The notes beneath the pieces were generated by a model, which saw only the letters and a program-made list of their open reading frames with translations, searched no databases and was not told the origin of the DNA. Below are positions 2,688 through 63,160 of a stretch of DNA of 64,000 nt, in pieces. The stretch's first letter is position 1. The number at the start of each line of letters is the position of its first letter. This DNA is from a virus, in the IMG/VR virus record IMGVR_UViG_3300032287_001974, positions 1 through 64,000 of that record. One strand, 5' to 3'. The translations under genes and the position numbers were made by a program.

Positions 2688-2771
2688 AAGGCTAGCCCCC
2701 TAACTCCCTTGCGGGATAGGTCTAGGTAATCGCCTAGCCGATTAGTTAGTTCCCTCTAACTACTACTAACA

Positions 2772-2825
2772 CTAGTGCCAAACAAGCCTACTAACAGACA
2801 TAGATTATAACGGAATGATAACGAC
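2772..2825 (-). promoter_or_regulatory. Promoter/leader element of leftward operon A
   Basis: On the minus strand: GTCGTTATCATTCCG then a perfect TATAAT -10 (plus 2804-2809), then CTATGTCTGTTAG and GGCACTAG, shared with operon B. The expected start of transcription is near 2797, about 110 nt before the first ATG. No clear -35 hexamer; the position it would occupy (2827-2832) abuts SOS box 1. Confidence 0.65.
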
Positions 2826-2830
2826 TACTC

Positions 2831-2846
2831 TCGAACACTTGTTCGA
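2831..2846. promoter_or_regulatory. Actinobacterial SOS (LexA) box 1
   Basis: TCGAAC-ACTT-GTTCGA, a perfect match to the actinobacterial LexA box TCGAAC(N4)GTTCGA. It overlaps the -35 zone of the operon A promoter, where bound repressor would block transcription. Confidence 0.8.
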
Positions 2847-2864
2847 ACAGGGGGGTAGGGTTAA

Positions 2865-2880
2865 TCGAACATCTGTTCGA
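2865..2880. promoter_or_regulatory. Actinobacterial SOS (LexA) box 2
   Basis: TCGAAC-ATCT-GTTCGA, a second perfect palindrome 34 bp (centre to centre) upstream of box 1, about three helical turns. Two full boxes side by side are very unlikely by chance and suggest tight control by host LexA or a phage repressor with the same specificity. Confidence 0.8.
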
Positions 2881-2883
2881 ACA

Positions 2884-3101
2884 CCCCGCCAGGTGTCAGG
2901 AACGGTTGAGGGTGCTAAAAGGTAGGCAGTAGCCTAAAACGGCGGGGGTAGCGGGCACGGCGGATCCGGCGCGCAGCGGGCCCTGCGGGTTTCTTTGTTC
3001 CCACCTACCTGCACATTTGCATCAAATATTTGAATAGCTACTTAAATAGATGATTGGAAGAGTTGAAGTAGCTTTGTCTGCTGCGCCGCCGAATTTCAAG
3101 C
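2884..3101. other. Non-coding gap between divergent transcription units
   Basis: No reading frame with a plausible start is seen. The stretch 2940-2990 is strikingly GC-rich (GCGGGGGTAGCGGGCACGG and on) compared with its surroundings. It contains a weak stem CGCAG/CTGCG followed by GGGTTTCTTTG, which might be a terminator. The part from 3020 on is AT-rich and leads into the strong promoter at 3102. Confidence 0.5.
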
Positions 3102-3129
3102 TTGACATGCAAAAAAACTTAAGTATAAT
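3102..3129 (+). promoter_or_regulatory. Strong consensus sigma-A promoter for rightward genes
   Basis: TTGACA (3102-3107), a 16-nt spacer, then TATAAT (3124-3129): both hexamers are perfect consensus. Transcription should start near 3136, about 40 nt before the first rightward gene. This is the best promoter in the window and probably drives the small genes from 3177 on. Confidence 0.85.
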
Positions 3130-11316: not shown

Positions 11317-12897
11317 ATGAGCGATTTAGAAGATTTCTACGAAGACGACTTCGAGGAGCAAGACGGCCCCGAGGAAGAACTCATTGATGAGTACGACGAC
11401 GGGCTAGACGAACTATCCCGTGAGTTTGTAGAGACTCTCGTCGATAAAATCATGATATTTATGAAGGCCCTAGTAGGCCACGATTTGCGCGCCTACCAAA
11501 AGCCGCTGGCTCGCCGATTAATCGAATCGGTAATCATTAATGACGGCGAAGAGATTACGGCACTGGCCTCTCGTCAGTCAGGTAAGTCTGAGACAGTAGC
11601 CGACACCGTAGCAGCCCTTATGGTAATCCTCCCTCGCTTAGCTAAGATGTACCCTGATTTGTTAGGTCGGTTTAAAGACGGTCTGTGGGTAGGCCTGTTT
11701 GCCCCTGTAGAGGGCCAGGCAGAAACATTGTTTAGCCGTGTTATCTCACGACTTACCAGCGACCATGCCCTTGAGATTCTGGGAGACCCAGAGATCGATG
11801 ACGAGGCTAAGAAGGTGGCGGGTGTTACTAAGCAGGTCAGGCTAAAGAACTCGGGCTCCAGCGTTATGATGATGACGGCTAACCCACGGGCAAAGATTGA
11901 GTCTAAAACCTTCCACCTAATTGTTATCGATGAGTGTCAAGGCGCTGACGACTTTATTGTGGCTAAATCTATTGGCCCAATGCTTGCGTCTACTAACGGT
12001 ACTATGGTTAAAACAGGGACCCCAAGCACCCAGAAAAACAATTTCTATCGCGCTATACAGATGAACAAGCGCAGACAAACAGGCCGCGGATCAAAGCAAA
12101 ACCACTTCCAATGGGACTGGAAAGATGTATCTAAAGTCAGCGTAGAGTACGGCAAGTTTATTAAGAAAGAGTCGCTGCGCATTGGTGAAGACTCTGACGA
12201 GTTCCAGATGTCGTACAACTGCAAGTGGCTTCTAGAGCGCGGCATGTTTGTAACCTCAAGCGTTATGGACGAGCTGGGCGACACATCACAAGAAGTTGTG
12301 AAAGCCTGGCATAGAACTGCTTGTGTAGTGGGGATCGACCCCGCGCGTAAGATGGACTCTACTGTAGTAACTGTGCTATGGGTAGACTGGGACCGCCCAG
12401 ACGAGTTCGGTTATTTTGACCACCGAATTCTAAACTGGCTAGAGATTCAAGGTGACGATTGGGAAGATCAATATTTCCAGATAGTAAATTTCCTAGAGAA
12501 CTACAATGTATTAGCTGTGGGCGTAGACGCCAACGGAGTTGGAGATGCTGTAGCCCAGCGTCTGAGGCTACTGTTGCCCCGTTCAGAGGTGTACTCAATT
12601 GGGTCGAGTCAGCCAGAGCAGTCGAAACGCTGGAAACACCTAAAACAGTTGCTGGACCGAAGAATGGTAGGGTGGCCCGCCCACGCTAAGACGAGGCGAC
12701 TACGTACCTGGAAGCGCTTTTACCAGCAGATGACCGATCTAGAGACTAAGTTCACCGGGCCCAACTTCCTAGCCCACGCTCCAGAAGAAGCCCACGCTCA
12801 CGATGACTACGCTGACAGCCTGGCTATTGCGGTGTCTTTGACTATAGATTTGACTATGCCGCAGGTAGAAGTTTCCTCCTCACCATTTTTTAGATAA
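11317..12897 (+). CDS. terL: Terminase large subunit, 526 aa
   Basis: DNA-packaging motor ATPase/nuclease. Acidic N-terminal 40 residues, then ATPase domain: Walker A SRQSGKS (85-91), Walker B LIVIDEC with D205/E206. C-terminal RNase H-fold nuclease: GIDPARKMD (D341), GVDANGVGD (D404), HDDYADS (H495, D496, D500), which would bind the two catalytic metals. Length is normal for the family. No small terminase gene is recognisable next to it. Start of the packaging/capsid block. Confidence 0.96.
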   Translation: MSDLEDFYEDDFEEQDGPEEELIDEYDDGLDELSREFVETLVDKIMIFMKALVGHDLRAYQKPLARRLIESVIINDGEEITALASRQSGKSETVADTVAALMVILPRLAKMYPDLLGRFKDGLWVGLFAPVEGQAETLFSRVISRLTSDHALEILGDPEIDDEAKKVAGVTKQVRLKNSGSSVMMMTANPRAKIESKTFHLIVIDECQGADDFIVAKSIGPMLASTNGTMVKTGTPSTQKNNFYRAIQMNKRRQTGRGSKQNHFQWDWKDVSKVSVEYGKFIKKESLRIGEDSDEFQMSYNCKWLLERGMFVTSSVMDELGDTSQEVVKAWHRTACVVGIDPARKMDSTVVTVLWVDWDRPDEFGYFDHRILNWLEIQGDDWEDQYFQIVNFLENYNVLAVGVDANGVGDAVAQRLRLLLPRSEVYSIGSSQPEQSKRWKHLKQLLDRRMVGWPAHAKTRRLRTWKRFYQQMTDLETKFTGPNFLAHAPEEAHAHDDYADSLAIAVSLTIDLTMPQVEVSSSPFFR

Positions 12898-51039: not shown

Positions 51040-51370
51040 GGGGATGATCGGTTTCGACGGTCATTCGTAAATTGGTGAAGCAAGCAGAGATAGCGGAGTC
51101 TCTTAAAACCGCTAAAAAAATAAATGCTGAATCTCGTTCTGCATTCGCACTAGCTGCCTGATCGTAGTTAGTACCCCCAGGAAAGCAGCAGTTCTAGCTG
51201 GGCACTTGGGTTTTAAATAAATAGAACAACTTGTATCACGTCCATGCTGGAGACGTAAAACTGAAGCACCACAGGATGTGGCAGTTCGGTCCTGGAAATA
51301 TAAACTGCCTAAGCTTGTAGAAGAACAACACACTAATGATCGGACCGGGGTTCAATTCCCCGCATCTCCA
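51040..51370 (+). ncRNA. ssrA: Transfer-messenger RNA (tmRNA)
   Basis: 5-prime GGGGATGATCGGTTTCGAC and 3-prime ending GGGGTTCAATTCCCCGCATC TCCA form the tRNA-like domain (acceptor GGGGATG / CATCTCC). The tag frame runs from GCT 51111 to TGA 51161 and encodes AKKINAESRSAFALAA, ending with the ClpXP-recognised ALAA. No encoded CCA. Phage-borne tmRNA keeps ribosomes recycling and is known in actinobacterial myoviruses. Confidence 0.93.
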
Positions 51371-51432
51371 CGCTTGCAGATAAAGGGAGCGCCCAGCGGT
51401 CTGCCCGTCCTAGGCAACGGAATTCTCCCAAT

Positions 51433-61761: not shown

Positions 61762-62141
61762 GTAACTCATGGTGGGCTGACAAGCTCGGAAATCAACAAG
61801 CACCTGCACAGAGACCGGCAGCACAGCCCTACGCAGCTCCCCCAAGCTATCCGTCGCAGACACCGCCGCCAATCGCTCAGGCGACTGCTGAGGGCCACAG
61901 GCTTCCAGCTAGCGCTGTGTCGTACGACCGCTGCCCAAACTGTTCTAGCGGTAACTACGGCAAGATGCCTGGCATGCCTGAAGCTAAGGCACGCTGCTAC
62001 GACTGCGGATATCCAATTACTCAGTCAGGGTCTGGCATGCCCGGAATGCACATCCCATCTAACGGTAATACCGAAGCTGCAAAACAAATCAGCACCAGCA
62101 ATAACTTCAACCCCGGAACTATCATTGATCGGATTGGCTAA
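61758..62141 (+). CDS. Pro-rich zinc-ribbon protein, 127 aa
   Basis: N-terminal Ala/Pro/Gln-rich (PAQRPAAQPYAAPPSYPSQT), then zinc ribbon YDRCPNCSSGNYGKM ... ARCYDCGYP, then Gly/Asn/Ser tail. Unknown function; may be a protein-interaction adaptor. Confidence 0.7.
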   Translation: MSNSWWADKLGNQQAPAQRPAAQPYAAPPSYPSQTPPPIAQATAEGHRLPASAVSYDRCPNCSSGNYGKMPGMPEAKARCYDCGYPITQSGSGMPGMHIPSNGNTEAAKQISTSNNFNPGTIIDRIG

Positions 62142-63160
62142 TGTCTAAAGCAGTAGAAGCCCTAGCGGCAAAGTTAAATAAAAAACTGGGCGACAACACT
62201 ATTGTCAGAGCTTCTGAGATTGTACCTATGACTCGGTTTACATCCGGCTCACTATCACTCGATATGATTTTGGGCGGAGGCTGGCCAACGAACCAGTGGC
62301 ATGAAATTATTGGCGAGGCAAGCAACGGTAAGACTGCGCTAGCCCTAAAGACTATTGCAGCCAATCAAAAACTTAACCCTGACTTTACTACTATTTGGGT
62401 CGCCGCAGAAGAATGGGTGCCCGAGTACGCAGAGATGTGTGGCGTAGACGCCAGTCGTGTCCACGTGTTTACTAGCAATGTCATGGAGATTGCCTTGAGT
62501 GCGGTCCTAGAGTTTGTAGAAACCAAAGAGGTAGACTGCGTAGTTATTGACTCCCTACCCGCTCTAGTACCTGCTGCGGAAGACGAGAAAGAAATGGACG
62601 AGTTCACTGTCGGTCGTGGCGCTATGCTCATGGGCAAGTTCTTCCGTAAGATGGAGAAGGCTGGTAAGCGTAGCATGCTAGGCGAAGACCGACCATTTAT
62701 CGGTCTAATCATCAATCAGTTCCGTATGAAGATCGGCGTAATGTACGGCGACCCACGCACCACCCCTGGCGGAGAAGCTAAGAACTACTTTTTCTTCACA
62801 CGCATTGACGTAAAGCGCGATGAGTGGATTGAGGTCGGTACTGGCCAGGACAAGAAAAAAGTCGGCCAAACTATTAAGTTCCAAACCCGTAAGAACAAGT
62901 CATCCCCTCCGGGGCAGTCAGCGTTCGTAGACTTCTACTTTGACGACGGTTCGGGCATTGACAAAGGCGAGTACGACTTTGCTAAAGAGATTGTATCCCT
63001 AGCCATCATTAACAAGCTAGTTACTCGTGCAGGTGCTTACTATCGGTACGCTGATCGACAGTGGCAGGGCGCAGACGCGCTGCTTAATTCCATTCGCGAA
63101 GAGGTAGATTTGCAGGAGCAGTTAACTACCGACGTTATGGGTACACTTAAGCTGGCATAA
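62141..63160 (+). CDS. recA: RecA-like recombinase, 339 aa
   Basis: Walker A GEASNGKTA (58-66), TIWVAAEEWVPEYAEMCGVD, Walker B DCVVIDSLPALVPAAE, FIGLIINQFRMKIG and loop-2-like TTPGGEAKNYFFFTRIDVKR. Somewhat diverged phage RecA/UvsX type; strand exchange and recombination-dependent replication. ATG overlaps preceding stop. Confidence 0.93.
   Translation: MSKAVEALAAKLNKKLGDNTIVRASEIVPMTRFTSGSLSLDMILGGGWPTNQWHEIIGEASNGKTALALKTIAANQKLNPDFTTIWVAAEEWVPEYAEMCGVDASRVHVFTSNVMEIALSAVLEFVETKEVDCVVIDSLPALVPAAEDEKEMDEFTVGRGAMLMGKFFRKMEKAGKRSMLGEDRPFIGLIINQFRMKIGVMYGDPRTTPGGEAKNYFFFTRIDVKRDEWIEVGTGQDKKKVGQTIKFQTRKNKSSPPGQSAFVDFYFDDGSGIDKGEYDFAKEIVSLAIINKLVTRAGAYYRYADRQWQGADALLNSIREEVDLQEQLTTDVMGTLKLA

Follow-up and report, generated by a model that had tools for sequence, protein, structure and literature searches.

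Twin SOS boxes and a recurring second motif ahead of an early operon in an actinophage-like virus with no detectable integrase

The analysed window comprises bases 1–64,000 of an 85,632-base virus record. The terminase large subunit (TerL, 11317–12897) matches those of Streptomyces Borockvirus-type phages (phage BRock and its relatives) at 55% identity over 94% coverage and is no more than 34% identical to any other in the phage collection, so that Borockvirus provides the nearest cultured TerL relatives. Portal, capsid and baseplate genes are present, which points to a contractile-tailed phage, and the virus further encodes RecA, DNA polymerase A, a pyrimidine-dimer glycosylase, ribonucleotide reductase, SpoVS and Hsp20. 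As in Borockvirus, a RecA gene is combined with the lack of a detectable integrase: no tyrosine/phage integrase was found in this record, which is possibly incomplete, or in ten others searched alongside, in agreement with an earlier reading of the sequence alone that saw no lysogeny module. Lysogeny without integration is possibly compatible with this absence. A TerL search of genome contigs for the host gave no match; TerL kinship, with the best known-phage matches infecting Streptomyces, suggests an actinobacterial host. A phage-encoded tmRNA gene (51040–51371, tag AESRSAFALAA) lies beside tRNA genes.

The locus of interest is a divergent upstream region ahead of four small leftward ORFs (2687–1732) in operon arrangement, hereafter operon A (Table 1). 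None of these genes has a known DNA-damage function. For the 69-aa membrane protein, a single-sequence scan gave no relatives, and a four-member alignment was too divergent for scanning; a 73-aa homologue is nevertheless encoded in the leftward operon of the L010 phage, likewise behind twin SOS boxes (local score 114 vs a shuffled maximum of 47). A GC-rich hairpin between operon A genes 2 and 3 (2101–2136), present with sequence changes in L050, is a possible attenuator or processing site. Near-perfect long inverted repeats are located at the borders of leftward operons, at 1557–1650 and 601–670 (arms of 40 and 26 bp) and at record positions 83322–83417 (by inspection). All three share the outer stem CCAACCCAACAA and differ in their inner stems; compared with Rfam, the long hairpins gave only below-threshold matches that we judged to be chance.

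Table 1. Features of operon A and its upstream region (positions in the window)
Feature	Position	Strand	Remarks
Operon A gene 4, 69 aa	1732..1941	-	two predicted transmembrane segments; homologues in L053, L059/L133 and the unrelated L010 phage
Operon A gene 3, 46 aa	1941..2081	-	cysteine-rich small protein; 78% identical in L059
Operon A gene 2, 99 aa	2137..2436	-	PHROG 2267; two Rhodobacter phage relatives annotated as WYL domain protein
Operon A gene 1, 83 aa	2436..2687	-	ORF; no assigned function
Predicted core promoter of operon A, CTGTTA-17-TAGTGT	2769..2797	-	consensus match only; layout repeated in operons B and C and in siblings
Phage-wide motif GTTATCATTCCGTTATAA	2805..2822	-	includes all but the last base of the TATAAT at 2809–2804
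Proximal SOS box (slot 1) TCGAACACTTGTTCGA	2831..2846	.	perfect in L151; one edge mismatch in L131/L132; one mismatch in L147
Conserved core TAACCCTACCCCCC	2850..2863	-	between slot 1 and slot 2
Distal SOS box (slot 2) TCGAACATCTGTTCGA	2865..2880	.	perfect in L131/L132; other sequence in L133, L137 and L063
Conserved anchor CCTGG	2889..2893	-	25 bp ahead of the core in every relative compared
Conserved anchor GGCTACTGCCT	2924..2934	-	second copy at record position 83171 (-)
Predicted divergent rightward promoter, TTGACA-16-TATAAT	3102..3129	+	about 220 bp from the distal box

Within this region, the 16-bp LexA-operator palindrome TCGAAC-N4-GTTCGA occurs in two perfect copies, 34 bp apart from start to start, both intergenic and upstream of a transcription unit. 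The twin boxes and the four or more small genes behind them, as described in the sequence-only reading, are thus borne out, and these are the only copies in the 85,632-base record, where no third site was found either as a perfect match or with one mismatch. The expected number of perfect boxes per 64 kb is 0.002 under an order-1 Markov model and 0.0015 when calculated from counted half-sites. With up to three mismatches allowed, the 20 sites detected against 20.3 expected are at chance level, so that the perfect pair alone stands out. The two boxes further conform to the stricter pattern TCGAACANNTGTTCGA, in which the outer bases of the spacer are A and T, a feature that the earlier reading had not used. 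Neither the RecA gene (62141–63160) nor the pyrimidine-dimer glycosylase gene (record 78074–78538, placed by reading its translation) has an SOS box.

These sites are identical in kind to the operators of the actinobacterial SOS regulon, for which the Streptomyces venezuelae LexA motif is tCGAAC-N4-GNNCGa (PMC9380542). Of 199 sampled genomes belonging to the phylum of an Acidimicrobiia MAG, 60 contain the strict motif and 3 the reversed control; one genome of this sample (G026) holds 30 copies, of which the 20 listed are identical and repeat-like. Cellular SOS genes seldom carry two perfect boxes this close: among 84,980 genomes scanned, strict pairs 10–26 bp apart occur in only two places, both canonical SOS loci, namely, between a LysM gene adjoining lexA and an nrdR-like gene (L139), and directly ahead of an imuA-like gene (L138; names read from translations). 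Twin boxes are rare in cellular genomes but, contrary to the sequence-only reading, not in phages: such a pair was found in 45 viral stretches. Some of these are repeats within long ORFs, and the twin boxes of, for example, L014, L022, L023, L027, L032 and L047 were rejected as promoter sites on this ground, as was the single perfect box of G210, which lies within a helicase ORF. In five high-GC viral contigs (L014, L023, L027, L032 and L047), the twin SOS-like palindromes lie in an ORF of 338–390 aa, with a similar third copy between them.

The location of the operon A promoter bears directly on how the boxes might act. A minus-strand TATAAT (2809–2804), taken in the sequence-only reading as the promoter element next to the boxes, does exist; however, it overlaps the end of the recurring motif GTTATCA-N4-GTTATAA, which occurs in both orientations, being inverted relative to the genes in L137, L147 and L151, and is accompanied by no conserved -35 element. 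The TATAAT is thus probably part of the phage-wide motif rather than a -10 box, so that simple blocking of RNA polymerase is not supported. More likely core promoters are predicted downstream of the motif, where operons A, B and C of the window have CTGTTA/CTGATA-17-TAGTGT/TAGATT/TAGTCT and other phages have similar elements in the same place (TTGACT-17-TATCTT in L155, TTGACT-17-TAGTCT in L156 and TTGCTA-16-TATTGT in L010); no such match was found downstream of the motif in L157/L161. If these predictions are right, the boxes, although near the TATAAT, are some 70 bp or more away from the likelier start: they would span about -69 to -84 and -103 to -118, and the motif would fall between them and the core promoter.

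Comparison with related phages shows a region in which anchors are fixed and the sequences between them are exchangeable. A pattern scan for the flanking anchors, together with a direct count, gave the same coordinates for GGCTACTGCCT (1), CCTGG (42) and TAACCCTACCCC (72) in five sequences, namely the window, L131, L132, L133 and L063; in L137, the last two are shifted by one base, to 43 and 73. The element at 2850–2934 can be written GGCTACTGCCT-N30-CCTGG-N25-TAACCCTACCCCCC, with constant spacing and variable filling; the C run of the core is replaced by a G run in L147, L151 and L046. What fills the 25-bp slot from CCTGG to the core differs: an SOS box in the clade of the window, a GTTATCA-type motif in L137, and unrelated sequence in L133–L136 and L063. 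The proximal slot, past the core, contains an SOS box in the window clade and in L151 and L147 (TerL identity to the window 86% and 82%, respectively), and one relative has the phage-wide motif in both slots. In the siblings L131 and L132, the boxes differ from those of the window by 1 change in 32 bp at about 8% divergence, a conservation that is not significant by itself. The more distant L046 (52% TerL identity) carries two perfect boxes and further near-perfect ones in a divergent region that precedes TerL by 8.5 kb, just as it does in the window. Boxes are missing from the homologous region of other relatives (L056/L137, L059/L133 and L063), and none were found in further relatives searched, many of whose contigs stop short of the region. 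Unlike the present phage, cultured Borockvirus-type records have no SOS boxes above background. Thus, LexA control does not appear to be essential to this phage group.

The GTTATCA-N4-GTTATAA motif, with up to two changes allowed, is found at the starts of the leftward operons of the record (2822-, 1549- and 576+), in both arms of the long hairpin at 1557–1650 (1569 and 1638), and near 82948–83310. Another leftward unit, in which an AAA_5 ATPase gene adjoins a gene with a VWA-like motif (record 79395–82902, minus strand), has GTTATCA-type motifs and the second GGCTACTGCCTA anchor (83171) upstream, and no SOS box. Scanning viral contigs for an SOS box 3–28 bp before the motif detected the composite in nine, namely L131, L132 and the otherwise different L155, L156, L157/L159/L161, L158 and L160, against a rough chance expectation well below one; the composite was present in none of 397 genomes sampled from the same bacterial phylum. 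In these unrelated phages, box and motif hold one orientation and one distance to the downstream early gene. The same arrangement, with twin perfect boxes and a slightly changed motif, recurs in the L010 group, whose TerL is different and in which no integrase was found: none of the 32 box positions varies across four contigs of this group, whereas the leader does, and 29 of 31 bases of a block beside and including the proximal box are the same as in the window (by inspection). In L155 (1–420), one perfect and one near-perfect SOS box precede GTTATCAAATCGTTATAA upstream of a SprT-like gene (judged from its translation).

The sites themselves, their rarity, their recurrence in relatives and in unrelated phages, and the lack of detectable integrase and LexA-like proteins are direct observations. 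The explanation that we consider to be the most probable, with a good measure of confidence, is that the boxes are operators for host LexA and belong to a composite switch that keeps operon A low until the host is damaged. The perfect pair, the position kept in relatives, the recurrence in unrelated phages and the presence of the motif at true SOS genes of cellular genomes make host-LexA control, as proposed in the sequence-only reading, the best-supported interpretation; that LexA binds, that it represses, where the promoter lies and what part this plays in infection are predicted from sequence. In an undamaged host, LexA would occupy both sites and keep the four-gene operon low; activation of host RecA by UV or by the infection itself would then lead to LexA cleavage and release of operon A. 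The layout consists of an SOS box, about 10 bp, the GTTATCA-N4-GTTATAA motif and then the core promoter; given that the motif sits between the boxes and the core promoter, LexA would probably hinder a factor bound to the motif, or bend or loop the DNA, rather than only cover the -35 element. Counting against host LexA, the boxes are located about 69–118 bp upstream of the likelier start, an unusual place for simple repression; the lack of boxes in other relatives that have the homologous region, and of known DNA-damage genes in operon A, weighs in the same direction.

The same slots hold the phage-wide motif in other members of the family and so are regulator sites in any case, a fact that would suit a phage-encoded repressor with LexA-like specificity that serves phage timing rather than damage sensing. 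HTH_3 proteins are indeed encoded by G003 and G005. However, this alternative, also raised in the sequence-only reading, seems improbable: the present record (G000) yielded no match to Peptidase_S24, LexA_DNA_bind or HTH_3, no helix-turn-helix family appears among the Pfam matches of its non-structural ORFs (1e-4), and the site is an exact match to the cellular SOS motif. We assign a similarly small chance to the possibility that host LexA is bound for another purpose, either as a decoy that titrates LexA or for control of the divergent rightward operon. The clusters of two to five perfect or near-perfect sites in the divergent region, and the remoteness of the boxes from the operon A core promoter, would fit such a role, but titration would be poorly served by two sites per genome, the predicted rightward promoter is too remote to make the rightward operon a likely main target, and the constant orientation and distance of box and motif relative to the downstream early gene in unrelated phages speak against it. 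That the palindromes are chance occurrences or relics without present function, as their absence from most relatives and the non-significant sibling conservation might suggest, is very improbable given two adjacent copies where about 0.002 are expected per 64 kb, the filling of the same position in L151, L147 and L046, and the same composite in unrelated phages.

Beyond operator function for host LexA, we put forward, as a suggestion that we lean slightly against but take seriously, that LexA operators, the GTTATCA-N4-GTTATAA motif and a core promoter form a transferable composite switch that has spread among unrelated virulent-type actinophages, and that one family exchanges LexA sites for the phage-wide motif, or the reverse, in operator slots at constant spacing, thus re-wiring its early genes from host damage sensing to another regulator or back.

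Several temperate phages are known to have genes under host-LexA control, the best-established case being the Bacillus phage GIL01 (Betatectivirus; PMC4551915), where host LexA acts at dinBox1 and dinBox1b of promoter P1 (PMC4551915, PMC6182141). The present phage resembles GIL01, by sequence, in having more than one host-LexA site in an early promoter region at which host and phage factors would act jointly. GIL01, however, is temperate and depends on LexA for lysogeny; its LexA sites are a near-canonical one and a half-site, and its genes include those for gp7 and a LexA homologue. In the present phage, both sites are perfect and a second motif separates them from the likely core promoter; the possibly incomplete record yielded no LexA-like protein and no tyrosine integrase. 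GIL01 itself is non-integrating. Another parallel is offered by the CtrA-controlled phages of Alphaproteobacteria, for which control by a host master regulator outside the lysogeny paradigm, through its binding sites at phage promoters, has been proposed as 'lytic deferment' (PMC9437464); these differ in the regulator and in the signal, which is the cell cycle and not DNA damage, and have experimental support, whereas the LexA sites described here are known from sequence. Two Streptomyces tectiviruses have been searched for LexA sites, with a negative outcome (PMC6950372). The openly licensed literature searched yielded no description of virulent actinophages with twin LexA operators.

Host LexA has been associated chiefly with the triggering of temperate phages. 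What appears to be new here is the apparent exploitation of LexA by phages without detectable lysogeny genes, through exchangeable slots and in combination with a recurring second motif. These phages probably tie some of their early genes to the damage alarm of the host. If so, a virulent phage, with a RecA gene and no detectable integrase, would read the damage state of its host during infection, and the exchange of LexA sites and another motif in slots of fixed length would provide a natural comparison set for phage promoters that gain or lose host control.
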